Origin: Pseudomonas chlororaphis subsp. aurantiaca
Lineage (GTDB): Bacteria; Pseudomonadota; Gammaproteobacteria; Pseudomonadales; Pseudomonadaceae
DNA: 64,000 bases
Assembly (NCBI RefSeq): GCF_013466605.1
Contig: NZ_CP059162.1
Location: 3,720,001-3,784,000, forward strand
Direction of reading: 5' to 3'
Shown here piece by piece: positions 19,788 to 47,358 of this stretch. Position numbers and translations under genes: made by a program. Position 1 is the stretch's first letter; each line of letters begins with the position of its first letter. The notes under the pieces were generated by a model, which ran no database searches, was not told the DNA's origin, and saw only the letters and a program-made list of their open reading frames with translations.

Positions 19788-19915
19788 GTCATATCCAAGA
19801 GTACCAAGCGATCATCGAAACCCTCGGCCACTGCATCGAAGGCAACCGGCAGGCCAGCAGCGCGACGATGAAGCCTGTGTTTCATGAACATGGCGACGAT
19901 TTTCGGCCGCCTTGA
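19784..19915 (+). pseudogene. Truncated NTF2-like gene remnant
   Basis: The plus frame from 19784 reads L-SHIQEYQAIIETLGHCIEG then NRQASSATMKPVFHEHGDD, and stops at 19915 after about 43 codons. This resembles the first helices of small NTF2/lumazine-binding-like proteins of about 120 residues. The expected overlapping ATGA start has become CTGA, and everything after the first third is lost. It lies exactly where the M28 peptidase gene of the next cluster ends, and so looks like a gene broken when that cluster arrived. Confidence 0.6.
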
Positions 19916-21558
19916 TCTGGATAACGTCGCGGGCCATCAGCCGGATCTGCCTGTCCCTGGAGTCTGGTCCGGATAGCCGGCGAGCGCAGTGCGGGACGCC
20001 ATGACGAGTCGGCCAGCAGGAGCAGCGTTTCATGAAGCACGTCGATGTCGGCGCAGAGGCTGGTGAAGTCCCAGTACCTGTCGAACGCATCGGACGTGCT
20101 GTGATACAGGTTCGAGTCGTAGAAGTCATGCCGTTTCAGGCCTTCCTCCACGCCCCCGCTGATCAGGTCGCTGCCGGTACTGACCTGGACCGCGGGGATG
20201 TCGATCTTGGCGAAGCTCGCCTGGTCGGATCGGTAGAAGTAGCCGGCGGCGGGCGCGTCATCGAGACTGATTTGCCGGTTCAGTTGCTTGCCGGCCCGCA
20301 TGAACGCACTGGGCAGCTCGGATTGATCACCGTCCACCAGGCTCAGGTCGCGGGTCCTGCCGATTGGCACGAAGCCATCAACGTTGAGCGCCGCGACCAC
20401 ATCAAGGCCGGTCTCGTCGATCAACCGGGCGACCTGGGCGGAACCGAGCATGCCCACCTCCTCCGCGGTGGTCCAGGCAAAGAGCACGGTGCGGCGTAGC
20501 GGGCCCGCGTTCGCCAGCCGCCTGGACAGTTCGAGCAACACAGAGACACCGACCGCGTTGTCAACTGCGCCGGGGTAGTAGCCACGGGGCTGGCTGCTGT
20601 CCGGGGTCCTGCCGAGATGATCCCAGTGCGCGCACAGCAATACGCATTGCCGGGGGAAAAGCGCGCCTTTGTGCATGCCCAGCACATTCCGGCAATGGCC
20701 GATCTTGATCTCGAAACCCAGGCGCAGCTGCAAGCGGACGTCGAGCCAGGGCGCGCGTCTGGCCATCGGCCATGGGTCGGCCAGGAAGGCATCGAGCTCG
20801 ACACCGGCCCTGGACAACAACTGCCGGCCGAAACGTTCGCTGCAGATCCCCTCGAATGCCAGGCCACTGCGCACCGCGCCCGGAAGAAACCGAAACGGCC
20901 GGCGCATCTCGTCCCGTACCAGATGGAAGGCGCTGCCGAACAGCTCATCGGTGTGGACGATGATCACGCCCGCGGCGCCTTGTCGAGCGGCCTCCTCGAA
21001 CTTGTATTCCCAGCGGCCGTAGTAGGTCATCCGCTCACCCTGGAAGCGCTCGCCCCCCGGGCTGTTGCGCCCGGGATCGTTGGGCAGCGCCACCACCACC
21101 TTGCCGACGACATCGAGCCCGGCGTAATCGTCCCACTGGTATTGCGGCGCGACTATGCCGTAGCCGACGAAGACCAGAGGCGCGTTGTCGAACACGACGC
21201 GGGCCTGCTGGGAACGAATCAGCAACTCACCATCGTGCAGCGGGTCGGGCTGCCAACCGTCGCCCTGGATGGTCACCTGCCCGCCCCGCGGGGTAGCGGA
21301 ACCAAGCGCCACGGACTGAAAAAGGCTTCTGCGGCCGTGCCAGGCCTTGAGCCCCATCCCCCGTGCCTTCCCGGCAATCCACAGGGATGCCCGCGCCCCT
21401 CCGGGCTCCCCTGCCCCACGCCCGGCGAAAAGCGCGCCGGACAGGGTCCGGCAGTTGTCGGCGAGTGCCGCGGCATGGGCCTTGTGCCTGAGGTAGCCAC
21501 GCAAGGACGGCGCGCCCCCGGGCTTGGACTTGGCCTTTTTTGGCAGTGACCGGCGCAT
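19882..21558 (-). CDS. M28-family metallopeptidase with PA domain
   Basis: A 558-residue protein with a PA-type inserted domain (about residues 130-260, VFVGYGIVAPQYQWDDYAGLDVVGK) and an M28 di-zinc core. The zinc ligands and catalytic acids are present: AHWDHLG, GAVDNAVG, TTAEEVGMLGS, ALNVDGF and the final His in YHSTSDAFDR. Known relatives are aminopeptidases, usually exported; this one starts MRRSLPKKAKSKPGG with no signal peptide, so it appears cytoplasmic. Its ATG follows the TAG of the amidohydrolase-like gene directly, implying translational coupling. The last ~30 residues are arginine/proline-rich and run over the broken NTF2-like gene, so the original C-terminus may differ. Possible roles are trimming a peptide product or detoxifying it. 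Confidence 0.88.
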   Translation of the reverse strand: MRRSLPKKAKSKPGGAPSLRGYLRHKAHAAALADNCRTLSGALFAGRGAGEPGGARASLWIAGKARGMGLKAWHGRRSLFQSVALGSATPRGGQVTIQGDGWQPDPLHDGELLIRSQQARVVFDNAPLVFVGYGIVAPQYQWDDYAGLDVVGKVVVALPNDPGRNSPGGERFQGERMTYYGRWEYKFEEAARQGAAGVIIVHTDELFGSAFHLVRDEMRRPFRFLPGAVRSGLAFEGICSERFGRQLLSRAGVELDAFLADPWPMARRAPWLDVRLQLRLGFEIKIGHCRNVLGMHKGALFPRQCVLLCAHWDHLGRTPDSSQPRGYYPGAVDNAVGVSVLLELSRRLANAGPLRRTVLFAWTTAEEVGMLGSAQVARLIDETGLDVVAALNVDGFVPIGRTRDLSLVDGDQSELPSAFMRAGKQLNRQISLDDAPAAGYFYRSDQASFAKIDIPAVQVSTGSDLISGGVEEGLKRHDFYDSNLYHSTSDAFDRYWDFTSLCADIDVLHETLLLLADSSWRPALRSPAIRTRLQGQADPADGPRRYPDQGGRKSSPCS

Positions 21559-22344
21559 CTAGGCCCCCTGCTCCCTGGAAAAATGCTTGAACAACCGGGC
21601 GCCATTGTCGAAGAACACCTGCCGGTGGTACTGCGGCGCAATCGCCCTGGCGCACGCGGCGAAATAACCCGGGTAATCGACAGCGGGCCAACCCGAGCCG
21701 AAGACCAACCTGTCCGGCTTGCCGGTGTAGTCGAGCATCCAGCGGATCGGCTCGATCAGCAGCCTGTCCAGCGTGGCCTCGGAGACATCGCTCAACGGGC
21801 CCTCGATGATCGAACTGAGGTCGAGCCAGACATTGTGATTCTTCGCCGCGAGCACCGCGGCATCGGTGAACCAGGGATTGCCGCTGTGCACCAGGAGGAA
21901 GTTCACCTCGGGATGCTCGACTATGACCTCGTCCAGGCTCAGCGGATGGGCATACTTGAGCTTGGAGCGATGCCAGCCGGTGTCGCCGCTGTGGAACAGC
22001 ACCGGGACATCGAACTGGCGCGCCAGGGCGTACAGCTCCCGAAGCCGAGGGTCGTCGGCGTACACATGCATGAACCCGAGGTTGATCTTGATCGCCAGGT
22101 AGACGCCGTCGGCCAGCCCCTGTGCCAGCGACTCGGAGCACCATTCAGGCTGGGCGATGACCGCGCACCTGCCCACCCCCAGTTCCCGCAACGCCTGGTC
22201 GCCGCAGGCGGGGGCACGGGAGTCGGTCACCGAGGCGACGATATTGAAGCGTGATTGCAACGCCTGGAACGCTTGCAGGCTGCCCGCCGCGGCGAACTCG
22301 GTATGCACGTGCGCGTCGAGAACGGGCCCGGAATAAGTGCTCAT
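21559..22344 (-). CDS. Amidohydrolase-2-fold protein with altered active site
   Basis: A 261-residue TIM-barrel protein of the amidohydrolase-2/ACMSD type. It has the N-terminal metal motif DAHVHTEF, further His residues in VLFHSGDTGW and LLVHSGNPWF, and the C-terminal barrel strand LVFGSGWPAVDYPG. In active relatives this last strand reads FGSDWP; here the metal/water-activating Asp is Gly (GGT for GAT). The protein may be inactive as a hydrolase or catalyse something else. ATG 22344 was chosen because AGGGAAG precedes it by about ten bases. It is in the biosynthetic array, 64 bp downstream of the second permease. Confidence 0.82.
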   Translation of the reverse strand: MSTYSGPVLDAHVHTEFAAAGSLQAFQALQSRFNIVASVTDSRAPACGDQALRELGVGRCAVIAQPEWCSESLAQGLADGVYLAIKINLGFMHVYADDPRLRELYALARQFDVPVLFHSGDTGWHRSKLKYAHPLSLDEVIVEHPEVNFLLVHSGNPWFTDAAVLAAKNHNVWLDLSSIIEGPLSDVSEATLDRLLIEPIRWMLDYTGKPDRLVFGSGWPAVDYPGYFAACARAIAPQYHRQVFFDNGARLFKHFSREQGA

Positions 22345-22408
22345 CGAAAAACTTCCCTGTGGGTCGATCACTATCGCCGCGCGGCATCCGGCGCGGCACC
22401 TTGAAGCA

Positions 22409-23197
22409 CTAGCTGCTAGCGCTGCTGTAGGACCTCAGGGCAAACAGCCAGAACACCCTGGACAGGCACAGGAAGGCGACAGCGAACAGAATCGCGCCGA
22501 GTACCTGCGGCCATCCGACCATGCCCATGGCCCCGGTAACCGGGACGTTGGAAACGAAATACACCGGGACGAGGAAGGTCAGTATCGTGCGGATCGTCTG
22601 CGGAAAGGCCGATACCGGAAACCGTGCGATTTCCATCAGCGTATAGCTGATGATCCAGACATCGCCGATCTTCACGAACCAGATCGACAAGGTGCAGGTG
22701 ATCAGGAACACCGAGTAGAAAATCGCCACCCCCGCGGCCATCAGCCCGAGGAACGCTGCGAGGTTGCCTGCACCCAGCGCGCCTTCGCTGTACATGGCGT
22801 ACAGCACCACGGCAAGGCCGATCAGTACCCGGGGCAGTTCCCAGAGGCTGATCTTCGAACAGGACACCAGGAACTGACTGTCGACCGGACGCACCAGCAG
22901 GTAATCCAGGTCACCGGTGCGCACCTTCTCCGACAACGCGTGCAGGCTGGGAAACAGCCAGACCTCCAGCAGGCCCTCGAGGATCAGCGCCACGCCGAAC
23001 AGCGCCAACACCTGGTGGAGGTTCCAGCCGCCCAGGCTGCCGACTTCGGCGAACATGGCATCGAGGAAGTACAGCGCCAGGAGCATGCCGACCACCGTAT
23101 TCACCGCATTGGTGATGGCATTGGCGCGAAACTCCAGTTCCGCGAGCATCGAATGCCTGATCAGGGCCAGCAGGACTTTCAAGGTTCTCAGGCTCAT
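22409..23197 (-). CDS. ABC-2 type exporter permease (second subunit)
   Basis: A 262-residue protein with six predicted membrane helices, of the uncharacterised ABC-2 permease type paired with a second permease and an ATPase (COG3694-like). ATG 23197 overlaps the stop of the first permease by four bases (ATGA), giving translational coupling, so the longer upstream frame was not used. With its two partners it probably exports the product of the cluster. Confidence 0.85.
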   Translation of the reverse strand: MSLRTLKVLLALIRHSMLAELEFRANAITNAVNTVVGMLLALYFLDAMFAEVGSLGGWNLHQVLALFGVALILEGLLEVWLFPSLHALSEKVRTGDLDYLLVRPVDSQFLVSCSKISLWELPRVLIGLAVVLYAMYSEGALGAGNLAAFLGLMAAGVAIFYSVFLITCTLSIWFVKIGDVWIISYTLMEIARFPVSAFPQTIRTILTFLVPVYFVSNVPVTGAMGMVGWPQVLGAILFAVAFLCLSRVFWLFALRSYSSASS

Positions 23198-23997
23198 ATG
23201 CCGGCTCCGGAAAAGCGCTTCAGGCCCTGGCGCCACAGGCCCCGGCGCAACGCCACCAGCACCAGCACCCAGAACAGCTGGGCCACGAAACCGTACAGCA
23301 GCTCGATGCCCGCGGCCTTACCGATCAGCACCTTGACGGGAAAATCCAGAGCCGAGGCGAATGGCAGCAGCGCGACGATGGAGCGGGTCGCCTCGGGGAA
23401 CAGGTCGACGGGAATGAGCGTGCCGCCCAGAACGGTGTACATCGACCAGACCAGGGCATCCAGCGCCACGGAGTTGGCCATCCAGAACGCCAGCAGGCCG
23501 ACGCAGTAATAGATATGGAAAATGATGATCCAGGCCAGGACCAGCGAGACCAGGAAAAACGGCAGCTGCCTGGCGATGCTCGGCAGGTCAATGTCGAACA
23601 GGGAGGCGCCGATGCAAAACACCGTCACCACGATCGGCGCGCGCACCAGCATCTGCCCCAGATGTTCGGCCACATGGAACCAGAACGGCGCGACCGGCTT
23701 GAGCAGGCGGCCCGACAAGGTGCCGTGGCGTATCTCGTCGTTCAGCACGAAGATGACCCAGACCGCGGTCAGTTGCCTGACCAGATAGATGCCCAGGAAA
23801 TACGCCACGAAATCGCTTGCAGCGTACCCACCAATCACCTGGTCCCGGGAAAGCTCCCACCAGATCAGCATCATGAACAACGGCGCGACGCCGCTGATCA
23901 GCCACACGAACAGCTGCGCCCGGTAGATCACGGTCACCAGCACGCTCGTGCGGATCAGGCGCCCGGCAATGCCGGGCAACGAAGCCAGGGCGACCAT
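23194..23997 (-). CDS. ABC-2 type exporter permease (first subunit)
   Basis: A 267-residue, six-helix membrane protein of the COG4587-like ABC-2 permease group (FVAYFLGIYLVRQLTAVWV, NDEIRHGTLSGRLLKP). ATG 23997 overlaps the TGA of the ATPase gene by four bases, so the 455-residue frame that extends upstream in the ORF is mostly out-of-frame ATPase sequence and was rejected as the start. Confidence 0.86.
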   Translation of the reverse strand: MVALASLPGIAGRLIRTSVLVTVIYRAQLFVWLISGVAPLFMMLIWWELSRDQVIGGYAASDFVAYFLGIYLVRQLTAVWVIFVLNDEIRHGTLSGRLLKPVAPFWFHVAEHLGQMLVRAPIVVTVFCIGASLFDIDLPSIARQLPFFLVSLVLAWIIIFHIYYCVGLLAFWMANSVALDALVWSMYTVLGGTLIPVDLFPEATRSIVALLPFASALDFPVKVLIGKAAGIELLYGFVAQLFWVLVLVALRRGLWRQGLKRFSGAGI

Positions 23998-24983
23998 CAG
24001 GCGTGCTCCCTTGGCAGCAACAGGCGGGGGAACGCCTGCTCGAGGGACGGGCTCTGGATCGAGATGTCCGTCACCGGGAAGCTCGCCAGCAGCTGTGCCA
24101 CGGTCTTGGCGACCTGCTCCTCGGGCACCAACAGTTCGGCGCCTTCGTTGTCCAGCCGGATCAGCTCGCCATAGGGGCGCAGGGATTCGTCGCTGACCGC
24201 CGAGGAGAAACGCAGGCACACCCGGCGCTCGGAAACATGGGCCTTCACCAGCGCCTGCCGGCCGCCGTCGAACACCACCTGGCCACGGTCCAGGACGATG
24301 ACCCGGTTGGCCAGCGCCTCGATGTCCGCCATGTAGTGCGAGGTCAGGATGATCGTCGCCCCGAACGCCTTGTTGTAGTCGACGAGGAATTTGCGGATCG
24401 CGACCTGCATTTCCAGGTCCAGGCCGATGGTGGGCTCGTCGAGAAACAGAATGCTCGGGCGATGCAGCAACGACAGGATGAGCTCGCATTTCATCCGCTC
24501 GCCCAGGGACAGCTTCCTGACCGGGCGGCGGGCGATGTCGCCGGCCGACAGCAACTCGCACAGTTCATCGATCCGGCGCCGGCATTCGGCAGGCGGTATG
24601 TCGTAGAGGGCACCGTGCAGGTGGAAAGACTCCAGCGCCGGCAAGTCCCAGGTCAGTTGCTGCTTTTGCCCCATGACCAGGGTGATCGACTTGAGGAACT
24701 CCGGCCGTCTCTTGAAGGGTTCATGTCCCAGGACCGAGAGATGCCCGCTGCTGGGCCGGACGATGCCCGAGAGCATTTTCAGGGTCGTGGTCTTGCCCGC
24801 GCCATTGCCGCCGAGAAACCCGACCACCTCACCCGCGTCGATCGAAAAGGAGACATCCCTGACCGCGGGGATGAACTCTTTCTCACGCCGAAAATACCGG
24901 AGCAGGCTGCGTGAATGGCCGTCACTGGCTCGGTACACTTCGTATACCTTGCTGACATCACACAGCTCGATTGCTTTTGACAT
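23997..24983 (-). CDS. ABC exporter ATPase
   Basis: A 328-residue ATPase of the COG4586/DrrA-like type that works with two ABC-2 permeases. Walker A is GGNGAGKTT, the Q-loop is in LVMGQKQQ, the signature is LSLGERMKCE (about residues 165-174), Walker B is ILFLDEPTIGLD, and the H-loop is TSHYM. A C-terminal extension of about 90 residues follows the core, as in DrrA-type drug exporters. SD GGAGATGT stands just before the ATG. It is the first gene of the exporter trio and lies 118 bp after the VOC-like gene. Confidence 0.92.
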   Translation of the reverse strand: MSKAIELCDVSKVYEVYRASDGHSRSLLRYFRREKEFIPAVRDVSFSIDAGEVVGFLGGNGAGKTTTLKMLSGIVRPSSGHLSVLGHEPFKRRPEFLKSITLVMGQKQQLTWDLPALESFHLHGALYDIPPAECRRRIDELCELLSAGDIARRPVRKLSLGERMKCELILSLLHRPSILFLDEPTIGLDLEMQVAIRKFLVDYNKAFGATIILTSHYMADIEALANRVIVLDRGQVVFDGGRQALVKAHVSERRVCLRFSSAVSDESLRPYGELIRLDNEGAELLVPEEQVAKTVAQLLASFPVTDISIQSPSLEQAFPRLLLPREHA

Positions 24984-25101
24984 ACATCTCCTTGATAACT
25001 CGCGCGTCCTGCGATTCAGTCAAAACGCCAGAATACTAGCATGGTGATCCTAGGTACTTGCCCGGCTGGCCGGGACCATCGGCAGCTGTGGCGCGGCGTA
25101 T

Positions 25102-25938
25102 TTATCGGCGGCGCGCCAGCAGTTGCGCCTGATGCCAGGCAGGGGACAATCCCGTGTCGATTACAAGACAGATCGACGGCGCGACCTTTGACTGGGCGAG
25201 CAGCCCCAGGCCGGGCACGTGGTCCAGGGCGAAGTCGGCCGCTTCGAGCATCGCGGTTGTCCGACCCAGGTCGACCGTGGCCAGGTGCACCAGGCAGGAC
25301 GCCCGCGCCAAGTCCACCGGCCCACTGTGGCGCTGCGCTGCGCGGTGCAGAAACGCCAGCCACTGGTGACCGATGGACAAGTGCCCCTCCTCCGTGCCGA
25401 TGCTCCCCGTCACGTCGCCAAGGCCTTCGAAGCAATGGCGTCGATCCTGCTCGGGCTGGGCGCAGAGCAATGACACCCCGCTGATCGCAAACAGGCCATT
25501 TTCCGCTACCAGCAGGGTGAGGTCCGTACCGATACCGCGCAGGTACTGAATGACCGACACCGGTACATCTCCCGGGCTGCGGGCCGGCAGGCTGGCAATC
25601 AGCCAGGCCGGTGCCTCCTCGCCCAACGGCGTCTTCTCGGTCACCGCCAGGGCCGCACGCCGCGCGGGCGAAAGGCCTTCGACATCCGCCAGCAGATCGG
25701 TCGAGCAGAGCCAGATCGAACAGGGTCGAAGATCCTGCCCCTCCCCGGCCCCCACGGCCCCCTCGGAACAGAACTCAAGATACCCCCCACTCAACCTGAA
25801 GAAGGCGCTTACGCGTCCGTCGCCGTGCTGCACTTGTCGCGTATGCCCGATGAAGCCTGCCCGCTCCCACTGTCCGATGACCTCCGCGAACAGGCCCTCC
25901 GGCAGCGGATAGACGATGTGATCAAGATGGGATATCAC
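25102..25938 (-). CDS. VOC/glyoxalase-like protein
   Basis: A 278-residue protein starting ISHLDHIVYPLPEG, the typical first strand of the VOC (glyoxalase/bleomycin-resistance) fold with a metal-type His, and with GGYLEFCSE closing the first module. The second half is more divergent but has LVHLATVDLGRT strands. GTG 25938 was chosen because AGGGAG precedes it by about nine bases; the upstream ORF extension lacks family features. The reaction is unknown. VOC proteins can be isomerases, dioxygenases, or binders that sequester an antibiotic. Confidence 0.72.
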   Translation of the reverse strand: MISHLDHIVYPLPEGLFAEVIGQWERAGFIGHTRQVQHGDGRVSAFFRLSGGYLEFCSEGAVGAGEGQDLRPCSIWLCSTDLLADVEGLSPARRAALAVTEKTPLGEEAPAWLIASLPARSPGDVPVSVIQYLRGIGTDLTLLVAENGLFAISGVSLLCAQPEQDRRHCFEGLGDVTGSIGTEEGHLSIGHQWLAFLHRAAQRHSGPVDLARASCLVHLATVDLGRTTAMLEAADFALDHVPGLGLLAQSKVAPSICLVIDTGLSPAWHQAQLLARRR

Positions 25939-26024
25939 CAGCGCTCTCCCTGCGGCTGCAATCGATGTCCAGTTCCCCCGTCGCCCGCCGAAGCACCGTC
26001 CTGTGCTCAGGCATGGGTATCGGT

Positions 26025-26654
26025 CTAAGGGCGCTTGCCCCGGGTGCAAAGCGTCAGCCCGTGCTCGTGCACGCCACCGCTTTTCACCTCCTGGGTCACC
26101 GCCTGCAAGCCCGTCGCCTTGAAGGCGTCGAGATAGCGAGCTTGCGGCCAGCGCGTCAGCTTCACGCCCAGCTCTTGCGCCCAGTCCTGCGACTCGTGGC
26201 TTTCCTCGTAGTAGTCGACCATGACGATCAGTTCTCCGCCCGGCGCCAGCAGGCTGGCGGCTTTCTCGATGGCGGCGGCGATGTCCTCGAAGTAATAGAA
26301 CACCTCCATGGAGAAGATCAGATCGAAATGGCGGCCTGCTGGCGGGCGCCAGTTCAGGAAGCTCTCGACATCGATCTCGACGTTATCCAGGTCGGACACC
26401 CTGGTGGCGCACATGCGGGCCATTTCCTGGCTGAGTTCCACGGCAAGGCAATGCCCGCTGGCGAACTTCGACCTGGCCATGTACTCCAGGGCGTAACCAT
26501 TGCCCGGCCCGATCTCCAGGTAACGCCCTGTAGATGGTTCAAGGGCGGACAGCACAGGCTCGACCCGGGCCCAATGTTCCCGGGCCATGTCCACCGCGCC
26601 ATCCTCGATGGCCCACTCGTCGAAGAGCGCCTCGACTTCCAGTTCGTGACTCAT
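26025..26654 (-). CDS. Class I SAM-dependent methyltransferase
   Basis: A 209-residue methyltransferase. SAM motif I is RYLEIGPGNGYALEYMA (about residues 43-59), the acidic loop is CLAVELSQE, and motif II is HFDLIFSMEVFYYFED. The C-terminus has LIVMVDYYEESHESQDW. It resembles small-molecule methylases of the UbiE/Trm group; the target is unknown. SD AGGAG lies six bases before the ATG. It is probably a tailoring enzyme of the cluster. Confidence 0.88.
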   Translation of the reverse strand: MSHELEVEALFDEWAIEDGAVDMAREHWARVEPVLSALEPSTGRYLEIGPGNGYALEYMARSKFASGHCLAVELSQEMARMCATRVSDLDNVEIDVESFLNWRPPAGRHFDLIFSMEVFYYFEDIAAAIEKAASLLAPGGELIVMVDYYEESHESQDWAQELGVKLTRWPQARYLDAFKATGLQAVTQEVKSGGVHEHGLTLCTRGKRP

Positions 26655-26690
26655 CCAACACTCCTGTTTGCAGTTGGGATTCGACCCGCG

Positions 26691-27800
26691 TCAGCGGATC
26701 CATCGATAGAAATGTACGGCGTTGCGATGCGAGCCGATCACCAGGTGACCGTCATCCGTAAGCAGTGGCGAGGAATGAAAACCGCCACTGTGCTCCAGGC
26801 GCCACAGGCTCTCGCCGGTGCGTTGCGCCAGGCAATGCAGGCGCTCATCCGTGCCGACCAGCAAGGCATCGCCGGAAGGCAGCACGGTAAAGGGCGTGTA
26901 CCTGAACTCGCACTCCAGGTTGACCCGCCACAGGCATTGCAGGCTGTGCAGGTCGATCCCGTACACATGCCCGTCATTGCTGCCGACGTACGCCACCCCC
27001 TGCGGGGACAGGCTCGGGCAAGACACCACGAAGCCATCGGTGTGAAATTGCCTGAGGACCGTACCGCTTTTGGTCTCGAACACGATGATCTTGCCGTCGA
27101 CTTCCGTGCCTATGACACCACGCCCCGAGGCATGGTCGATCGCCGCGGTGCCTTCGAACCTGCCGGTTTCGGTGATTCTCCAGCGCTCCTCGCCGTCGGG
27201 CCTGAAGCACATCAGGATATTGTCGGTGCCGACGATGACATTGCCGTCCGCATCCAGTGCTGGCGAGCTGTAGAGATCGTCCTCTACCTGCTCGTCGAAC
27301 GACTGCTTCCACAGCAACCTGCCCGAGGCATGGTCAAGGGCGTACAGCGTATGATCGTAGCTGCCTGCGTAGACGATGCTTCTGGCTGGATCGATGGTCG
27401 GGCTGGCATGGAATGGCCCCTGAGCATGAAAGGCCCAGAGGCATTCGCCATCCTGGCTTATCCGGCGCAAGACATGGTCCTCGCAACCCACCACGAAACT
27501 GCCATCGTCCGACACCGCAGGAGAGCTGTAGACCGGCCCCTGGGTCGCGAAACGCCACTGGTGCGCGCCATCGCGCAGGCTGACGCACTGCAGGCTGTTG
27601 TCCCAGCAGCCGAAAACGATGCGGTCCTCGCCGATCCTGCACGGAATGCTCCATACCCGTTCGGCGCAGGGAATCGTGCGCTGATGAGTCGGCTTGACGT
27701 GCCAGTCCAGCACCGGCGTATCCCGCCATGGCCTGTAACAGCGCAGCGCCTGGTTGTTTTTGTACCATGTGCTTTGCAAATGCTCAGCGTAATCCGACAC
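26691..27800 (-). CDS. PQQ-type beta-propeller protein
   Basis: A protein of about 369 residues composed of seven or eight repeats of 38-42 residues with the PQQ-blade pattern (S-P-x-x-D-D/P-G-x-x-x-x-G ... L-x-x-x-D-x-x-G-x-x-x-W), for example SPAVSDDGSFVVG, SPTIDPARSIVYAG, SPALDADGNVIVG, CPSLSPQGVAYVG. GTG 27800 was chosen because GGGGAGG lies five bases upstream. No signal peptide or dehydrogenase residues are seen, so it is unlike periplasmic quinoproteins or BamB. A cytoplasmic propeller in an operon with a TPR protein and tailoring enzymes suggests a scaffold or an unusual enzyme. Confidence 0.82.
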   Translation of the reverse strand: MSDYAEHLQSTWYKNNQALRCYRPWRDTPVLDWHVKPTHQRTIPCAERVWSIPCRIGEDRIVFGCWDNSLQCVSLRDGAHQWRFATQGPVYSSPAVSDDGSFVVGCEDHVLRRISQDGECLWAFHAQGPFHASPTIDPARSIVYAGSYDHTLYALDHASGRLLWKQSFDEQVEDDLYSSPALDADGNVIVGTDNILMCFRPDGEERWRITETGRFEGTAAIDHASGRGVIGTEVDGKIIVFETKSGTVLRQFHTDGFVVSCPSLSPQGVAYVGSNDGHVYGIDLHSLQCLWRVNLECEFRYTPFTVLPSGDALLVGTDERLHCLAQRTGESLWRLEHSGGFHSSPLLTDDGHLVIGSHRNAVHFYRWIR

Positions 27801-27838
27801 GCCACCCTCCCCGGACACTTCCCGGTCCGTCGCGCTGC

Positions 27839-28276
27839 TTATTGGCACATTGTCCGCCTGGCGTCTTCTATGCCGCCGCCGTACTTCTCGGATATCTCGA
27901 TCTTGTAACCATTGGGATCGAGAAAATAAACCGAACGTGAAGAGTGGTATTGAACTTCATAATCGGGGAGCAACTTCACGCCGTGATCGCGTAGTTGCGC
28001 CAGAACATGGTCGAAGTCTTCCACCAAAATACCGAAGTGAGTAATTTCCAGGCCATCATTCTTTACACCCCGCCCTTCGGCATATTCATGCATGCATAAA
28101 TACAGTGTCTGATCCGCGCCAATAATCATCCAGCGGGTAAAGGCACGAATACCCACTTCCTTCACTTCGAAACCGAACACCCGCGCATAAAACGCCTGGC
28201 TTTCTTCAATATCGGCCACATCGAGCTGGATATGATCGATACCCACGATTCTGATCCTGTCGAGCGGAGCATTCAT
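27839..28276 (-). CDS. VOC-family (glyoxalase/dioxygenase-like) protein
   Basis: A 145-residue single VOC unit pair. Metal-ligand candidates are His in GIDHIQLDV, His in ITHFGILVED and Glu in GYKIEISE, the classic H-H-E arrangement, with the family motif YFLDPNGYKIEI. Such proteins include glyoxalase I, extradiol dioxygenases and FosA-type resistance enzymes. Its ATG overlaps the TPR gene's TGA (ATGA), so the two proteins are coupled in translation. Confidence 0.88.
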   Translation of the reverse strand: MNAPLDRIRIVGIDHIQLDVADIEESQAFYARVFGFEVKEVGIRAFTRWMIIGADQTLYLCMHEYAEGRGVKNDGLEITHFGILVEDFDHVLAQLRDHGVKLLPDYEVQYHSSRSVYFLDPNGYKIEISEKYGGGIEDARRTMCQ

Positions 28277-29526
28277 TGGACAAGCCCTCGATAATCATCC
28301 GGCAACAGGCCGTCGGTTTCCCAGGTATCGATATAGGATTTGAAGAACGGCAGCACTTCCGGCGAATGTTGCCGGGCTACTTCATAACCGGCGATACCGG
28401 CGGATATATTTGTCTTGTCGAGTAACAGGGTGCTCTTGAACGCGTCCAGCGCCTGGTCGAAGTTCCCCAGTTGCTGATGACAGGCACCGATCATGTATTG
28501 CGAGTAAGTCACCCGTGGAAAACCGATGTCGTAAGCCTTCTGGAAGCGTTGCAACGCGCGTTGCCATTGCCGGTCGACCACTTCGACCTCACCGGCCTCG
28601 TGATAGGAAATACTCCAGTCGGGATCGTAGGCAAGCAGCTCATCGGCCACACGCCGGGCACTTTCGACATCGCGGGCGACGTAGAGCATTTCCTTGAGCT
28701 TCGACTCGTAGACAGTCTTGCGTGCTTCCCGGGCCTCGATACTGCCGCCTCTCTCGCCGCGCAACACCGCCTCGGCATACTCTTCGGCCAGCAGCATGTA
28801 TTGCCGCGTGGTGGCGACGTCGCCCCGGGCCGCCGGCACCATGGCCAGGCCGCGATAGAACGAAGACAGCGAAACCAGATCCGCCGGCGTGGTGCTCGAG
28901 GCAATCTGCTTGACCGCCGCCTCGCCCGTGCCGATGAACCAGCGGTTCAGCTCGTCATCGATGGCATTGCCCTTGATTTTCCAGACGATCGCCTGGGAGC
29001 AGACATCCAGCACCCGGGCTGGCGACAGCCGATGGGCCTGCATGAGCGCCTTGAGTGCGGTGAAGTCGTCCTGATGCGAGGATTGCATCTCAAGACGGTT
29101 CTGAATGGCAAAGCGGGCCAGATGATAAGTCACCCGCTGATCGGGATAGAGCGCGTCATAAGGTACCTCGGCCAGTACCTGATTGGCGAAGCGGTACCGG
29201 CAGCTGGCGGCCAGGGACTGTGCCAGGCTCAGTTTCTGCACCGGCGGAGCCCATTCGCGCAGGTCCGCCAGCCACTTCAGCTTGGCGACCGGACCGTCCA
29301 TCCCGTACGAGAAAAACTCGAGCTCATCGACGCTGATGGCGTGCCGCTGCGCGACTTCGACCAGTGTCGAGGGTTCAAGAAGTTGAGGCACCCGATAAGG
29401 CACTTCATCGAAATTCTGTTCCGCCAGCCCCGCACACACAGAGCGGGACCAGTTCGTTTGATGCACGCCCGTGTCATCGTAAAAGAACACGGCGCGCGAG
29501 AATGCGTCATCCACTTTTCTGGACAT
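28273..29526 (-). CDS. TPR-like helical protein of unknown function
   Basis: A 417-residue, mostly alpha-helical protein. The C-terminal half contains TPR-like units (LLAYDPDWSISYHEAGEVEVVDRQW and SQYMIGACHQQLGNFDQAL), including the A-L-x-x-F-x-x-A pattern. The N-terminal ~190 residues are not recognised; they include WSRSVCAGLAEQNFDEVPY. No enzyme motif is visible. SD GGGAGA precedes the ATG by four bases. It is the first large gene after the 18-codon ORF and the two hairpins. TPR proteins often bind short peptides, so it may handle the short ORF's product. Confidence 0.8.
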   Translation of the reverse strand: MSRKVDDAFSRAVFFYDDTGVHQTNWSRSVCAGLAEQNFDEVPYRVPQLLEPSTLVEVAQRHAISVDELEFFSYGMDGPVAKLKWLADLREWAPPVQKLSLAQSLAASCRYRFANQVLAEVPYDALYPDQRVTYHLARFAIQNRLEMQSSHQDDFTALKALMQAHRLSPARVLDVCSQAIVWKIKGNAIDDELNRWFIGTGEAAVKQIASSTTPADLVSLSSFYRGLAMVPAARGDVATTRQYMLLAEEYAEAVLRGERGGSIEAREARKTVYESKLKEMLYVARDVESARRVADELLAYDPDWSISYHEAGEVEVVDRQWQRALQRFQKAYDIGFPRVTYSQYMIGACHQQLGNFDQALDAFKSTLLLDKTNISAGIAGYEVARQHSPEVLPFFKSYIDTWETDGLLPDDYRGLVQ

Positions 29527-29573
29527 ATCATCTCCCTATGACATGTAGGAACCGCGAGAGGTGTGATTAAAAA

Positions 29574-29600
29574 TACGGCCGAAGCAATGCTTCGGCCGTA
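29574..29600 (-). terminator. Strong hairpin with U5 tract between the short ORF and the TPR gene
   Basis: Perfect 12-bp inverted repeat TACGGCCGAAGC / GCTTCGGCCGTA around a 3-base loop. On the minus strand it is followed at once by TTTTT, the form of an intrinsic terminator. It stands 37 bp after the short ORF's stop and 47 bp before the TPR gene start, so downstream genes need read-through or antitermination. Confidence 0.75.
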
Positions 29601-29603
29601 CTT

Positions 29604-29625
29604 CACAAGACACCGGTATCTTGTG
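29604..29625 (-). promoter_or_regulatory. Second hairpin immediately before the terminator
   Basis: CACAAGATACC / GGTGTCTTGTG on the minus strand pairs over 11 positions with one G:U. It begins 12 bases after the short ORF's stop and ends three bases before the terminator stem. It could protect a short transcript or take part in attenuation. Confidence 0.55.
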
Positions 29626-29637
29626 TACAGCAGACAA

Positions 29638-29694
29638 TCAGAGGATGAACAGCGCCGAAAGGATTCGGGTCTGAACGCTTTGATATTTAATCAT
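29638..29694 (-). CDS. 18-residue peptide: candidate precursor or leader peptide
   Basis: The frame ATG...TGA encodes MIKYQSVQTRILSALFIL. GGAG lies eight bases before the ATG, an ideal ribosome binding site, and a similar GGAGAT element precedes the TPR gene. The peptide has a polar, basic first half (K3, R10) and a hydrophobic second half (ILSALFIL). It is the first ORF of the minus-strand array and is followed by two hairpins, the second terminator-like. That layout fits either an abundant precursor peptide made from a short transcript (as with pqqA or mccA) or a regulatory leader whose translation controls read-through. It matches no precursor I recognise. Confidence 0.55.
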   Translation of the reverse strand: MIKYQSVQTRILSALFIL

Positions 29695-30194
29695 TTCACT
29701 ATCTCCATGTGATTAAAGGTTGCTGCCGAGTTGCAGCGATATCAGGTCTAGTTGCCACCCCGAAAAAGGTCAAGGAAACTCATCCAAAAAAATTTATTTA
29801 GCCGAAAAGCAGTCACAGAGAAAAAACCCGCTCATCCTTTATATACTTAGAACATATACTCAACCGCACAAGAATTTAACTGAACAGTTAGAACACATAT
29901 AGAGCCCATTGTTATCAGCGACTTACTCGCGCAAACAAAATGACAACGGCGCCACTGCGACTATCCACTCGAACGGTTATCAATCGCTGCGCCGTTTCAT
30001 TTGAATGCCTATACCCACGAGCTTATCGCCGCAACAACTTGTAATACTTCGCCTTTGCTTGACGCTTTCACAAAACTCAACTAATTAAACTTCCTTCCAG
30101 AACGGTACATGGACTTGTCCGCAGACGGAAACAAGGCACATGAATGGAACTCAACAGGCTGCCCGGCAGTCGCGAAGATCAGGAGCGATCGACG
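29695..30194. promoter_or_regulatory. AT-rich divergent promoter region of the cluster
   Basis: This 500-bp gap between the short ORF (-) and the ribosomal protection gene (+) is clearly richer in A+T than its surroundings and must hold both promoters. It contains a direct repeat, TTAGAACATATA (29847) and TTAGAACACATATA (29888), starting 41 bp apart, and an inverted repeat AACGGCGC (29945) / GCGCCGTT (29989). I could not place convincing -35/-10 pairs. No coding frame here is believable. Confidence 0.5.
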
Positions 30195-32168
30195 ATGAAA
30201 TCCCTGAGCATGGGTATCCTGGCGCATGTCGATGCCGGCAAGACCAGCCTGACCGAGCGGATACTTTTCGACGCTGGCGCCAGGCCGCGCCTGGGCAGTG
30301 TGGACTCGGGCAGCACCTACACCGACAACCTGCTCCTGGAGCGTGAACGCGGCATCACCATCAGGTCCGCGGTGGCTTCGTTCGAGCTCGACGGCATCCT
30401 GGTGAACCTGCTGGACACTCCCGGGCACCCGGACTTCATCGCCGAGGTGGAGCGCACGCTGGCCTTGCTGGACATCGCCATTATCGTGGTGTCGGCGATC
30501 GAGGGGGTCCAGGCCCAGACCCGCGTACTGGTGGGCGCCCTGCAGCGACTGGCGATTCCCCATGTGTTCTTCGTCAACAAGGTCGATCGCAAGGGGGCCG
30601 ACTTCCAGCGCACCCTGGAGGCGCTCGGCAGCCACCTGAAGAGCCGGCCCCTGTCACTGGTCAGCGTGCACGATGCCGGGACTGGCCTGGCGACGGTCGA
30701 AACCAGCGATCCGGCGGCGCCCCAGGTGATGGCGCAGTGGCTGGATCTGCTGTGCGAGCATGACGAAGCCTTGCTGCACGACTATGTCAGCGCCCCTGAA
30801 GCCATTGGCAAGGCGCGCCTCGAGCGGGAGTTGCGCCAGCAACTTGGCCAAGGCCTGGTCAACCCGGTGTTCGCCGGGTCCGCCATCACCGGGGTCGGCG
30901 TCGCACAGATGATCGAGGCAATCACCCGGCTGGCCCCGGTCAAGTCTTATGACGCCAGTGCCCCTGTGCTTGCCTCGGTGTTCAAGATCGACAGAGGCTG
31001 GGGTGGGCACAAGCGCTTTCATCTCTGCATGCTGGCCGGGACCTTGCGCCTCAGGCAAACCGTCGACACGCCGCAAGGTGCGTCCAGGGTCACCGGCATT
31101 CATGTGTCCGCCAGCGGCGGCTTGCAACCCGCCACCCAGGCCACCGCAGGCCAGATTGCCTGCATCACCGGGCTCGAAGGCGTGCGCATCGGTGACCGCA
31201 TCGGCGCTTGCAGCGAGCGCGGCAAAGGCGCCCACACCTTCACCCCCCCGGCTATCGAAACCCATGTCTCCCCCGCTTCGCCGGGGCAGACCAAGGCGCT
31301 CTGGGAGGCGCTCAGTGCGCTGGCCGAGCAGGATCCACTGATCGACCTGCGAAGAAATGCCGCGGGCCAGGTGTTCGTCTCGCTGTACGGCGAGGTACAG
31401 AAAGAGATCATCCAGGCCACGCTGCAGGACGAGTACGACATCCAGGCCCTCTTCGAGGAAAGCTCGGCCATCTGCGTCGAAACGTTGCTGTCGAGCGCCG
31501 AGGGCCTGGAGTCGCTCGACGATGAAGGCAATCCCTTCCTCGCCACCGTGGGTATTCGGGTCAGTCCGGGGGCGCCGGGATCGGGCCAGACATTCATCCG
31601 CGAAGCCCATGCCGGGCTGATGCCGACGAGCTTCTACAAGGCCATCGAGGAATCGGTCTTCGAAACCCTCCGGGAAGGCCGGCATGGCTGGGCGGTGCAC
31701 GACTGCGAAGTCGCGCTGACCAGGGTCGACTATGCATCCCCCTCGAGCACGGCCGCTGATTTCCGCCACCTCACCCCCCTGGTGCTCGCTGCGGCGATCG
31801 GACGGGCCGGTACCCAGGTGTGCGAGCCGCGCAGCCAGTTCCGCATCGAGGTGCCCGCGGCGCTGAGCAGCCCAGTCCATGCCTTGCTGGCCAAGGCCGG
31901 CGCCACCCTCAACGGTGCGACCCTGAGCGGCGAGACCGTGCGCATTCAAGGCTCGATCGTCACCACGCGCATCTACCGGCTGCAACATGAAATCCCTAAC
32001 GCCACCAGCGGCCTGGGCTTCATGGAAAGCGAACTCGCCAGCTATGCGCCAGTTGCGGGAACACCCCCCTGCCGGGAGCGGACCATGGCCAACCCTTACA
32101 ACCGGCATGACTACCTTCGGCAGGTACGGCTCGGCCTGCGCATGGGCAGGCCGGCCAGCAACGCCTGA
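30195..32168 (+). CDS. TetM/OtrA-type ribosomal protection GTPase
   Basis: A 657-residue translational GTPase of the EF-G superfamily. The G motifs are AHVDAGKTSLTE (G1), RGITI (G2), DTPGH (G3), NKVD (G4) and a GSA-type G5, followed by EF-G-like domains II-V. The N-terminal run (GSVDSGSTYTDN...LERERGITIRSAVASF) follows the ribosomal protection family, above all OtrA of the oxytetracycline producer, rather than housekeeping EF-G, which has a different G1-G2 spacing and about 700 residues. Known members remove tetracycline from the 30S A site. ATG 30195 has AGGAG nine bases upstream. It is divergent from the biosynthetic array, the usual arrangement for self-resistance. Confidence 0.92.
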   Translation: MKSLSMGILAHVDAGKTSLTERILFDAGARPRLGSVDSGSTYTDNLLLERERGITIRSAVASFELDGILVNLLDTPGHPDFIAEVERTLALLDIAIIVVSAIEGVQAQTRVLVGALQRLAIPHVFFVNKVDRKGADFQRTLEALGSHLKSRPLSLVSVHDAGTGLATVETSDPAAPQVMAQWLDLLCEHDEALLHDYVSAPEAIGKARLERELRQQLGQGLVNPVFAGSAITGVGVAQMIEAITRLAPVKSYDASAPVLASVFKIDRGWGGHKRFHLCMLAGTLRLRQTVDTPQGASRVTGIHVSASGGLQPATQATAGQIACITGLEGVRIGDRIGACSERGKGAHTFTPPAIETHVSPASPGQTKALWEALSALAEQDPLIDLRRNAAGQVFVSLYGEVQKEIIQATLQDEYDIQALFEESSAICVETLLSSAEGLESLDDEGNPFLATVGIRVSPGAPGSGQTFIREAHAGLMPTSFYKAIEESVFETLREGRHGWAVHDCEVALTRVDYASPSSTAADFRHLTPLVLAAAIGRAGTQVCEPRSQFRIEVPAALSSPVHALLAKAGATLNGATLSGETVRIQGSIVTTRIYRLQHEIPNATSGLGFMESELASYAPVAGTPPCRERTMANPYNRHDYLRQVRLGLRMGRPASNA

Positions 32169-32185
32169 TCACCTCGGCCCCGGGT

Positions 32186-33154
32186 TCAGACCACGGGCGC
32201 GGCGCTTACCTGGTTCAACTGATACAGATCGGCCTGCGACAGCTGCAACTGCGGGGCCGCCATGATCTCCCGCAGTTGCTCGACCGAGCTGGCTCCCACC
32301 ACGGGTGCGACCACGGCGGGGCGAGACAACAGCCAGGCCAGGGCAACCTGGGTGCAGCTGCTGTCGCGCTCCTGGGCGATCCGCCGCAGCACCTCGAGGG
32401 CCTGCCAGTTCCGGGCGTTGAAGTAGTCTCGCTGCACGCCCGCCGCGCGAGGCGAGCCCGGCAAGGCTGCCTGCTGTTGGTAGCGGCCGCAGAGAAAGCC
32501 CTTGGCCAAGGGGTTGTAGGGCAACAGACCGACCCCCTCCTCCACGCACAGCGGCTGCAGTTCGGACTCGATTCGATCACGCTCCAGCAGGTTGTAGCGT
32601 TCCTGGACGCTGACATAGCCCGCCAGGGCCGAGCGCTCGCTGATCGCCAGCGACTTCATCAACCGCCAGGCCTTGAAGTTGGAGCACCCCACATAACGAA
32701 CCAGCCCACGCTGCACCAGATGGTCGAAGGCCCGTAGCGTCTCCTCCACCGGGACATCGTCGTAGTCGTCATGCGCCTGATACAGGTCGATGCAGTCGAC
32801 TTGCAAGCGGCTCAAGGAACCTTCGACAGCCTTGACGATATGCCGCCAGGAAAGCCCCTGGTCATTCGGCCCTGGCCCCATGCGCCCGGACACCTTGGTC
32901 GACAGCAGCACCTCGTGCCGCTTGGTCGTGGTCTGCAACCAGCGCCCGACGAACTCCTCCGAGGCCTTGCCCCCCACCCCGTCGGCAAAGACCGGATAGA
33001 CATCGGCGGTGTCGATCAGGTTGCCGCCTGACTCGACGTAGGTATCGAACAACCTGCGCGATGTCGCTTCATCCACCCACCAGTCGCATTGCGCGGTTCC
33101 CAGCGCAATGGCGGAAACCTTCAGCCCTGAACGGCCAAGACGCCTGTAATCCAT
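32186..33154 (-). CDS. Aldo/keto reductase
   Basis: A 322-residue (beta/alpha)8 NADPH oxidoreductase. The catalytic tetrad is visible: Asp in LIDTADVYPV, Tyr in DVYPVF, Lys in LLSTKVSG and His in LYQAHDDYD. The NADPH loop lies in VVGASSVEQL near the C-terminus. It belongs to the YajO/YghZ-like group. It is convergent with the ribosomal protection gene (17 bp between stops), so membership of the cluster is possible but not shown. Confidence 0.9.
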   Translation of the reverse strand: MDYRRLGRSGLKVSAIALGTAQCDWWVDEATSRRLFDTYVESGGNLIDTADVYPVFADGVGGKASEEFVGRWLQTTTKRHEVLLSTKVSGRMGPGPNDQGLSWRHIVKAVEGSLSRLQVDCIDLYQAHDDYDDVPVEETLRAFDHLVQRGLVRYVGCSNFKAWRLMKSLAISERSALAGYVSVQERYNLLERDRIESELQPLCVEEGVGLLPYNPLAKGFLCGRYQQQAALPGSPRAAGVQRDYFNARNWQALEVLRRIAQERDSSCTQVALAWLLSRPAVVAPVVGASSVEQLREIMAAPQLQLSQADLYQLNQVSAAPVV

Positions 33155-33297
33155 GATCGATCCTTACTTCCCTGTGGTATTGGTTCCATGCATCCGCGGC
33201 GCAGTATAGTCGCGGCCGCCTCTGGCGCTCCCGCCCTCGCGCGATGATGTGGCGCAGCGACAGCGAGACAAACAAGCGTCAATCAGGCGCCTGCCGT

Positions 33298-45923: not shown

Positions 45924-46216
45924 GGCTTCCAGGTTCAACAAGAGAAGTCTGAGGTGAACAGCTAAAGGCCATTCATATTCAGCAGGGGGTTGGGATTGGG
46001 TAGTTGCAACAGGATCAATAGCCGTGTTGTGCCGGAATGGGCGCAATACAATACACGCTGATATTTTCAATAAGGGTATAAAGCCATATGAACAAGATCA
46101 TTCAGTAGAAATATAAGATTTATCTTACTCATGCAAAGTATTGCTCTTAACGCCAGCTGACATTATTTCCTAGTATCCTACCCCTCATATTTTTACTTGA
46201 GTTTACTGGGAGACAT
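45924..46216. other. AT-rich intergenic region
   Basis: About 290 bp between divergent genes, with lower GC than the surroundings. It must hold the promoters of the ATPase operon and of the coiled-coil gene. No defined operator or RNA was recognised. Confidence 0.5.
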
Positions 46217-47302
46217 ATGCTCTTACGTACTATCTTCATCGAAAACAAAGAGCAGCAAATGCTGACTGCGGCTTTGCTCTGCAGTTTTTCTGTTCCAGAA
46301 GCAGGTCGAAACTTTCTCGCCTATAGCCTGAACGAAAGCATTGATGATGATAATCTGCGCGTCTATATCGCTTTGTTATTCAACGAAGGCGGTAATTACT
46401 GCCTGGGCGCCCTGGACTCGGACGAAGATGGGCAACTGGCGATGCGCGTGTTCGGCCAGATCCTGCGCGAAGCCGCCACTGGCGAACGCCGTGAAAGCGA
46501 TGTGCCCTACCATCTGCTGGACCTGAACAAACAACAGTTGCCCGCCGCCGCCGCGGCGGACCATCGACTCTTGAGCACCAAGAAGGAATGGGTCGCCAGG
46601 CTGCTGAGCTTCCAGGCTTCAGCTCAATCTGGCCCGGCGGTTGAACATTCACCCACCGTCATCGATGACCAGCAACTCGACGCCGCCCTGGCACAGCTCG
46701 ACGAACAGTTGGACCACAGCGCGGAACAGGAACACCACGAATCCACCGAGACTGCCGATGGCTGCGAAACGGAAAGCCCCCGGCCAGAGGCGCCTGCGGC
46801 CGAAATTCGCTACTCCGATGCCGGCCCCCTGCCGATGCCGGCCGAGCAGCAGAACCCGGGCGGCTTCCAGGATGACGACTGGCCTTTCCCGGGCACCGAC
46901 CCCGAGCAGTTCCTGCAGGATGTAGAGGTCAGCCTGATGGAGTTTTCCACTATCGCCGACCGGCTCAAGCAGCAGAAACAGCACAGCCAGGCACAACAGC
47001 AGACCTTGAACTCCAGGGAGTCTCAACTGCAGGAGAAAGAGCGCCTGTTCGAACGGAAGGAAGAACAGTTACAACAATGGCAACGGCAACTTGATCAGGA
47101 TCGGCAAGCCGACAGTGCGCTACGCGCGCAACAAGAAGAGCGTCAGTGCGAACTGGATAAACGTGAAGAAGCTCTGCAGCAAAAGACCAGGGAACTGGCG
47201 CAGCAATTCAAGAAGCTCAACCATGCCAAGGACCACTTCAACAACACCCTGAAAAACCTCAATGAGATCATTCGAGTCAATGAGGATGTGCTGTCCGAAT
47301 AA
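46217..47302 (+). CDS. Unrecognised protein with C-terminal coiled coil
   Basis: A 361-residue protein not assigned to a known family. The first ~120 residues are compact (MLLRTIFIENKEQQMLTAAL, DDDNLRVYIALLFNEGGNYC). Residues ~130-240 are acidic and Pro/Glu-rich and probably unstructured. Residues ~245-355 form a Gln-rich coiled coil (QKQHSQAQQQ, KERLFERKEEQLQQWQRQL). The upstream 290 bp are AT-rich, and the start follows GGGAGACAT. It stands alone between the Gld-like exporter and a binding-protein-like gene. Confidence 0.75.
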   Translation: MLLRTIFIENKEQQMLTAALLCSFSVPEAGRNFLAYSLNESIDDDNLRVYIALLFNEGGNYCLGALDSDEDGQLAMRVFGQILREAATGERRESDVPYHLLDLNKQQLPAAAAADHRLLSTKKEWVARLLSFQASAQSGPAVEHSPTVIDDQQLDAALAQLDEQLDHSAEQEHHESTETADGCETESPRPEAPAAEIRYSDAGPLPMPAEQQNPGGFQDDDWPFPGTDPEQFLQDVEVSLMEFSTIADRLKQQKQHSQAQQQTLNSRESQLQEKERLFERKEEQLQQWQRQLDQDRQADSALRAQQEERQCELDKREEALQQKTRELAQQFKKLNHAKDHFNNTLKNLNEIIRVNEDVLSE

Positions 47303-47358
47303 ACCTATCCTGGCCGCCAGGCAAACTTCGTTGTTACCAGGACTGATGGCCCACTCAA

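Follow-up and report, generated by a model that had tools for sequence, protein, structure and literature searches.

A travelling gene block of Pseudomonas with a conserved 18-codon gene and a ribosomal protection GTPase: a candidate new class of RiPP-like pathway

In pathways for ribosomally synthesised and post-translationally modified peptides (RiPPs), a short conserved precursor gene has modifying-enzyme, peptidase and exporter genes as neighbours; the precursor can occur in tandem copies, and a hairpin may separate it from the enzyme genes. The precursor can be very short, as it is for microcin C. These features, with candidates for the modifying enzymes, can all be recognised, in the window or in related loci, in a gene block of Pseudomonas chlororaphis subsp. 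aurantiaca. The window is the whole 64,000-nucleotide stretch of DNA that was analysed, i.e. positions 3720001-3784000 of a complete 6.95-Mb genome. The block differs from the known pathways by its core, which consists of a tetratricopeptide repeat (TPR) protein, a vicinal-oxygen-chelate (VOC) protein termed VOC1 and a beta-propeller, and by a precursor of only 18 residues. No lanthipeptide (LanB/C/M), YcaO, radical S-adenosylmethionine (SAM), MNIO or PqqD-type component is found among the listed Pfam and NCBIfam matches of ten array proteins (the best 25 NCBIfam matches each for VOC1 and for the ATPase of the ATP-binding cassette, ABC, exporter).

Two further systems are close to individual proteins of the block. 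TetM removes tetracycline from the ribosome. The GTPase encoded divergently from the array resembles OtrA, TetM and TetO: it is an EF-G-like protein that aligns with TetM over nearly its full length, its best NCBIfam family is tet_protect, and it has kept the SPxST loop, which we take to be the domain IV loop that displaces tetracycline. Its likely start is at 30195 rather than 30144, since TetM aligns from residue 18. It differs in scoring below the NCBI tetracycline-protection cut-offs (613 bits for NF012153, cut-off 775; 606 for NF000120, cut-off 900), and the block has no recognisable tetracycline genes. VOC1 shares the fold of FosA/FosB, ChaP and L-DOPA dioxygenase. Its model has a predicted local distance difference test (pLDDT) value of 83, with FosA as top structural match, and its residues H15, H80 and E127, invariant across 25 aligned rows, line up with H, H and E of FosB, presumably the FosB metal ligands. 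Two histidines and one glutamate within a VOC fold make VOC1 a predicted metal-binding enzyme. It is distinguished from the FosA/FosB-type enzymes by its low identity to the 50 best structures (17-30%), by its family-wide YHSSRS and HE motifs and by its TPR neighbour.

The block is probably a mobile pathway, in which an 18-residue precursor made by the ribosome would be converted to a small compound that targets ribosomes. It is a candidate new class of RiPP-like pathway, matched to no known class. A ribosome-targeting antibiotic is a probable product because the cluster carries its own ribosome-protecting gene, from which we infer that the ribosome is the target. Among the matches listed in the open-licence literature (titles and abstract openings), there is neither a report of VOC modification of RiPPs nor a recognised description of this gene set; PMC12703449 deals, in the part covered, with precursors of another type.

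The 18-codon gene and the travelling block

The minus-strand array extends from 29694 down to 19882. It starts with the 18-codon open reading frame (ORF), followed by the genes for the TPR protein, VOC1, the beta-propeller, a methyltransferase, a second VOC-fold protein (VOC2), the ABC ATPase, two ABC-2 permeases, an amidohydrolase-fold protein and an M28 peptidase. The GTPase gene is divergent, on the plus strand, and is followed by an aldo-keto reductase gene on the minus strand (Table 1).

The 18-codon ORF is a real gene of fixed length under purifying selection. In eight Pseudomonas loci (seven genomes) it occurs as 15 copies with nine distinct sequences, always of 18 residues and each preceded by a GGAG ribosome-binding site; each of the seven other loci has a tandem pair, the window a single copy. 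Eighteen of the 51 nucleotide positions vary, and 13 of these 18 are third codon positions (P = 5e-5 for random placement). Nine codons vary only silently, four change the residue (positions 4, 5, 9 and 11), and the pooled ratio of nonsynonymous to synonymous polymorphism (pN/pS) is 0.13 for seven sequences. The N-terminal MIK[YF]xS and the C-terminal LSALFIL are conserved in the Pseudomonas peptides. The LFIL codons, the final four before the stop, show no variation at the DNA level, which may reflect an added nucleotide-level constraint or gene conversion. The single copy of the window resembles the first copy of the relatives in its upstream part and the second in its 3' part, as would result if a tandem pair had been joined by a single deletion.

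Related peptides were also found in more distant clusters, with scores compared to background ORF sets from which the cluster loci were left out. On the Rhizobium rhizogenes plasmid pC5.7d, the 18-residue MVEFTSTKMEILSSLFII, with AAGGAG upstream, lies between the VOC1 and nucleotidyltransferase genes and scores 52 against the Pseudomonas set, the best of 11,903 background ORFs reaching 25. In the Pseudomonas genome G417, a 55-residue peptide starting with MIKYESTEFAKVSAYF is encoded ahead of an M3 peptidase gene; its first 16 residues score 38 (background best 30 among 12,782 ORFs). Three proteins similar to the G417 peptide are present in the protein database, one of them labelled Pseudomonas syringae, the first 16 residues of which score 30, a value equalled by one of the 12,782 background ORFs. 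A gene-encoded precursor peptide is thus conserved together with the cluster, and its conservation is tied to the TPR, VOC1 and propeller trio.

The whole set is kept in identical order in all seven other full Pseudomonas loci examined, found in P. neuropathica P155, Pseudomonas sp. AKS31, CFBP 13711 and four further genomes. The loci of AKS31 and G252 (L010 and L053) have 100% identical flanks and were counted as one genome, so that the seven loci stand for six distinct relatives. In each of the seven, nucleotide homology to the window (blastn) spans from 19984-20004 to 33154-33210, and the relative flanks (1.4-6.3 kb per side) have no match to the window. Four loci (L009, L010/L053, L052 and L054) have flanks in common, with about 91-93% identity; those of L011, L051 and the window are common to none. 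The 13.2-kb block, including the protection and reductase genes, is thus one travelling unit with near-fixed ends, found in four flanking contexts. The O-methyltransferase and TetR genes to its left were kept out of the unit, being unmatched in the seven Pseudomonas loci; this O-methyltransferase has a 31% match within the G417 cluster.

An earlier note on this DNA, made from its letters alone, had already listed the 18-codon ORF, now established as a conserved precursor gene, which is the key result of the present analysis. Its description of a discrete biosynthesis-and-export block without standard class marker agrees with the conserved gene order and with the Pfam and NCBIfam scans of the array proteins. 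No second copy of TPR or VOC1 was found in the window's genome.

Relatives of the cluster and the protection gene

In the genome searches, scoring was limited to the few best candidates of each genome. Of the 398 Pseudomonas genomes, which include the window's own, six have the TPR gene (E ≤ 1e-30), and the same six have VOC1 (E ≤ 1e-15). The GTPase was found in five (E ≤ 1e-80), which are those with the full cluster; the sixth is G417, with a divergent cluster. A set of 57 relatives comprised the window's own genome, 35 others of the genus that overlap with the 398, and 21 members of the same order. Its only TPR matches were the window and, in G047, a partial one at 30%. The GTPase matched in full in the window alone; the hit ranking second was partial (E 1.4e-37) and, in our reading, EF-G kin. 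A class-level scan gave one match in 229, the window itself (E ≤ 1e-25), and viral contigs and phages gave none. A scan of another order gave one in 227, G749 (E ≤ 1e-15); this VOC match was set aside, having an internal stop, 35-38% identity and no TPR or propeller match in 19.5 kb. In a collection of 72,556 plasmid records, TPR matched six and VOC1 four, and four carry both. TPR matches on Streptomyces plasmids were dropped (59% query coverage, 28.5% identity, no adjoining VOC annotated in the one record read).

VOC1 is well conserved. At least 58 homologues are present in a 5.8-billion set; all those listed have an identity of 55% or more, in 57 cases with a query coverage of at least 83%. 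More remote homologues escape this search, for example the G417 protein at 43%. The sources are Pseudomonas, Agrobacterium, Paenibacillus, Peribacillus, Brevibacillus, Bacillus, Xenorhabdus, Photorhabdus, Macrococcus and Vibrio. Wherever the context of a cluster was read, VOC1 adjoins TPR, the distant G749 VOC being uncounted, and the beta-propeller also accompanies them in the Rhizobium, G417 and Macrococcus clusters. The pump type follows the lineage: ABC in the Pseudomonas block, MATE in G417 and Macrococcus, and MFS beside the Rhizobium cluster.

The G417 cluster (L050:7298-16305) encodes the 55-residue peptide, the M3 peptidase, TPR, VOC1, MATE and propeller proteins, an arginase-family protein, an O-methyltransferase and a JmjC protein, and arginine modification of the peptide is possible there. 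Two Macrococcus armenti plasmids (L035:11086-15936 and L067) carry a TPR gene split by an in-frame stop, together with VOC1, MATE and propeller genes. On L035, a 19-residue ORF and a hairpin, seen by eye, stand ahead of a gene for a 241-residue protein without Pfam match.

Among the closest known systems is the cluster of R. rhizogenes pC5.7d and pC6.5c, where VOC2, TPR, VOC1, propeller, amidohydrolase, M28, methyltransferase and GTPase genes are found, rearranged. With the precursor, pC5.7d has these eight protein genes in common with the window block, at identities from 61% (VOC1) down to 27% (VOC2). The ABC trio is unmatched there. A gene 51% identical to that of the methyltransferase lies near the Rhizobium protection gene, with one gene between. 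This cluster (L034:586-21194, L068) also has aminoethylphosphonate, LicD, nucleotidyltransferase and PhyH genes, beside the MFS pump, and differs further in a protection gene of another branch. A term search of PMC6546132 gave no match for this cluster.

In a tree of 16 ribosomal protection proteins (RPPs) and EF-G, the eight Pseudomonas rows, two of them from one genome, form one group (support 100/100). The RPP from the Rhizobium cluster falls among stand-alone proteins of the Rhizobiaceae (97/95 and 98/96), apart from the Pseudomonas group. This position among stand-alone genes suggests, as the simplest reading of the tree, a separate, second recruitment to the Rhizobium cluster. Five Rhizobiaceae RPP surroundings were read: three genes are stand-alone, and the other two belong to versions of a single cluster. 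The stand-alone OtrA-like genes, on Agrobacterium, Ensifer and Rhizobium plasmids (L037, L038 and L039), have about 50% identity and no array annotated within 15 kb on either side. A Paenibacillus plasmid RPP relative is stand-alone as well.

These comparisons bear on another explanation, namely that free metabolites are the starting material for a small molecule made by the array, with the peptide as an accessory protein and the protection gene as a passenger drug-resistance gene. The Rhizobium version includes aminoethylphosphonate genes, with phosphoenolpyruvate (PEP) mutase, phosphonopyruvate decarboxylase and transaminase matches that exceed the curated thresholds, so that a building block other than a peptide may be used in at least one version; its product may be a phosphonate, possibly a peptide-phosphonate hybrid. 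RPP genes are, in addition, common on plasmids. However, the best PEP mutase match in the window's genome (45 bits, 30% identity over part) is not convincing, and the Pseudomonas product is therefore probably not a phosphonate. Moreover, the peptide is constrained, duplicated in the relatives and present in all eight full Pseudomonas loci, and among the 398 genomes the RPP gene is found only with the array, inside a unit with near-fixed ends. We thus regard this explanation as unlikely.

The hairpin, the TPR protein and regulatory readings

A strong hairpin separates the precursor and TPR genes. The 110 nucleotides past the precursor stop fold with -41.9 kcal/mol in the window, and the same stretch after the second copy with -41.9 to -45.8 kcal/mol in four relative loci (three genomes). 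In Rfam, the 801 bases around the precursor gave two sub-threshold microRNA matches only. Such a hairpin raises the question of a regulatory leader peptide, in which ribosome stalling on the 18-codon ORF would control the hairpin and hence transcription of the array, in the manner of the leaders known for antibiotic-response genes. The DNA-invariant last four sense codons and the nearby protection gene would fit with this scheme. It is nevertheless difficult to reconcile with two tandem copies in the relatives, each with its own ribosome-binding site, with the predominance of third-position changes, and with the location of the Rhizobium homologue downstream of VOC1 instead of ahead of TPR, its amino acids being still conserved. 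The similar N-terminus in G417 heads a 55-residue protein. A leader peptide thus appears quite unlikely.

The TPR protein is predicted as a confident superhelix, nearly all helical (pLDDT 92); the 50 best matches in a fold search are TPR and related helical-repeat proteins, and its aligned homologues are 28-87% identical. RRNPP receptors are also TPR proteins, with short hydrophobic peptides as their ligands. An RRNPP-like quorum-sensing pair controlling the array, with the peptide as signal and the TPR protein as receptor, would suit a peptide ending in LFIL but is very unlikely, given a TPR protein without DNA-binding or phosphatase module in a Pfam scan, with none of its 50 best fold matches named as an RRNPP receptor, and with a gene that overlaps VOC1 by ATGA and keeps this neighbour in Rhizobium and Macrococcus, and given a peptide with a conserved N-terminus and no secretion signal by eye.

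Proposed pathway and features of the block

In the preferred reading, that of a precursor peptide pathway, the TPR superhelix would hold the precursor by its N-terminal part, while VOC1, as a single-domain metalloenzyme with the two-histidine, one-glutamate triad, would carry out the central modification, close to the conserved S-A-L-F, with the propeller as a possible partner or scaffold. VOC2 could then tailor the peptide together with the methyltransferase, amidohydrolase and aldo-keto reductase. The cluster has both a peptidase and an exporter: the M28 peptidase would trim the leader, and the ABC trio would export the product. By analogy with TetM, the OtrA-like GTPase would then clear the product from the 30S A-site region of the producer's ribosomes.

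Several observations weigh against this reading. No PqqD or RiPP recognition element (RRE) domain was found in the ten array proteins by Pfam (E 0.1; no dedicated RRE search was run), and scans around the precursor called neither the hairpin as a consensus terminator nor a sigma-70-like promoter. The Macrococcus 19-mer was rejected as a homologue, 489 of 4,726 background ORFs scoring as high, and since it failed this test it is counted by position only. The flanks are partly common among the Pseudomonas loci, and the counts in the 398 genomes overstate independence because L009, L010/L053, L052 and L054 share theirs. For the GTPase, the scores below the NCBI cut-offs have been given above, and the tree is also compatible with stand-alone RPP genes having been shed from clusters. 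The earlier note had raised the question of whether the protection gene always accompanies the array; it does so in all five RPP-bearing genomes among the 398, but not in the plasmid collection, where relatives of the GTPase occur in 888 records (E ≤ 1e-60), nearly all without TPR and VOC1, compared to four with both. No GTPase match was found in the 19.5 kb read in G417, nor in the 23.4 kb searched on one Macrococcus plasmid. With RPP relatives common outside clusters and none found in these two stretches, it cannot be taken for granted that the TPR/VOC1 family as a whole is directed at the ribosome. Taken as a whole, the earlier interpretation is partly supported.

A wider hypothesis can be put forward tentatively, with somewhat more doubt than confidence: a new RiPP class, present in both Proteobacteria and Bacillota, whose precursors are very short and would be handed by the TPR protein to a metalloenzyme of the VOC type. 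One branch of this class would make a 30S A-site inhibitor and would have recruited tetracycline-type GTPases at least twice. If true, the 18-mer, TPR, VOC1 and propeller provide a searchable signature for peptide-derived compounds made without recognised nonribosomal peptide synthetase (NRPS), polyketide synthase (PKS) or standard RiPP genes. The compound would be a candidate ribosome inhibitor, with the GTPase as a built-in clue to its binding site. Repeated recruitment would also imply that some protection genes may have arisen or persisted through a non-tetracycline compound. The presence of protection GTPases in Gram-negative soil bacteria would have an ecological explanation that does not involve tetracycline.

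Table 1. Features of the block in the window (window positions).
Feature	Position	Strand	Basis
18-residue precursor peptide gene MIKYQSVQTRILSALFIL	29638..29694	-	conserved in 8 Pseudomonas loci; GGAG upstream
Strong hairpin and T-run, possible partial terminator, between precursor and TPR genes	29571..29603	-	RNA fold
TPR superhelix protein, proposed peptide-binding partner	28273..29526	-	TPR Pfam hits; structure model
VOC1, small VOC metalloenzyme (predicted), proposed core modifying enzyme	27839..28276	-	invariant HHE; FosA-like fold
PQQ/ACSF4-type beta-propeller protein, no signal peptide by eye	26691..27848	-	PF13570 179.8 bits, cut-off 133
SAM-dependent methyltransferase	26025..26654	-	PF13489
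VOC2, divergent VOC-fold protein, GTG start likely	25102..25938	-	weak match to Rhizobium Glyoxalase_3 protein
ABC exporter ATPase, DrrA-like	23997..24983	-	TIGR01188 214.7 bits, below cut-off 312
ABC-2 permease 1	23194..23997	-	PF06182
ABC-2 permease 2	22409..23197	-	PF06182
Amidohydrolase-fold protein, internal ATG start near 22344 likely	21559..22371	-	PF04909; HxH motif
M28 metallopeptidase, proposed trimming/release peptidase	19882..21558	-	PF04389 117 bits; HxD, D, EE, D, H motifs
OtrA/TetM-type ribosomal protection GTPase	30195..32168	+	NF012153, NF000120; TetM alignment
Aldo-keto reductase, part of travelling unit	32186..33154	-	adjoins protection gene in 7/7 Pseudomonas loci compared

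The genes named in the earlier note were all recovered where it had placed them, as long open frames, and Pfam or NCBIfam agrees for most of them. The aldo-keto reductase gene, which travels with the cluster, lies inside the range of that note and is missing from its gene list. Of its two VOC proteins, VOC2 has no Pfam or NCBIfam match of its own, and its assignment depends on a weak match (27% identity over part) to the Rhizobium Glyoxalase_3 protein. Several ATGA overlaps had been described: 4-base overlaps of this kind are present at two junctions, TPR/VOC1 and permease 1/permease 2, whereas the ABC ATPase/permease 1 junction is TGATG and the amidohydrolase and M28 genes abut. A tRNA search of the window found none. 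Two stretches have a lower GC content than the window (0.629), namely 46001-48000 (0.547) and 28001-30000 (0.545), the second corresponding to the precursor/TPR region.

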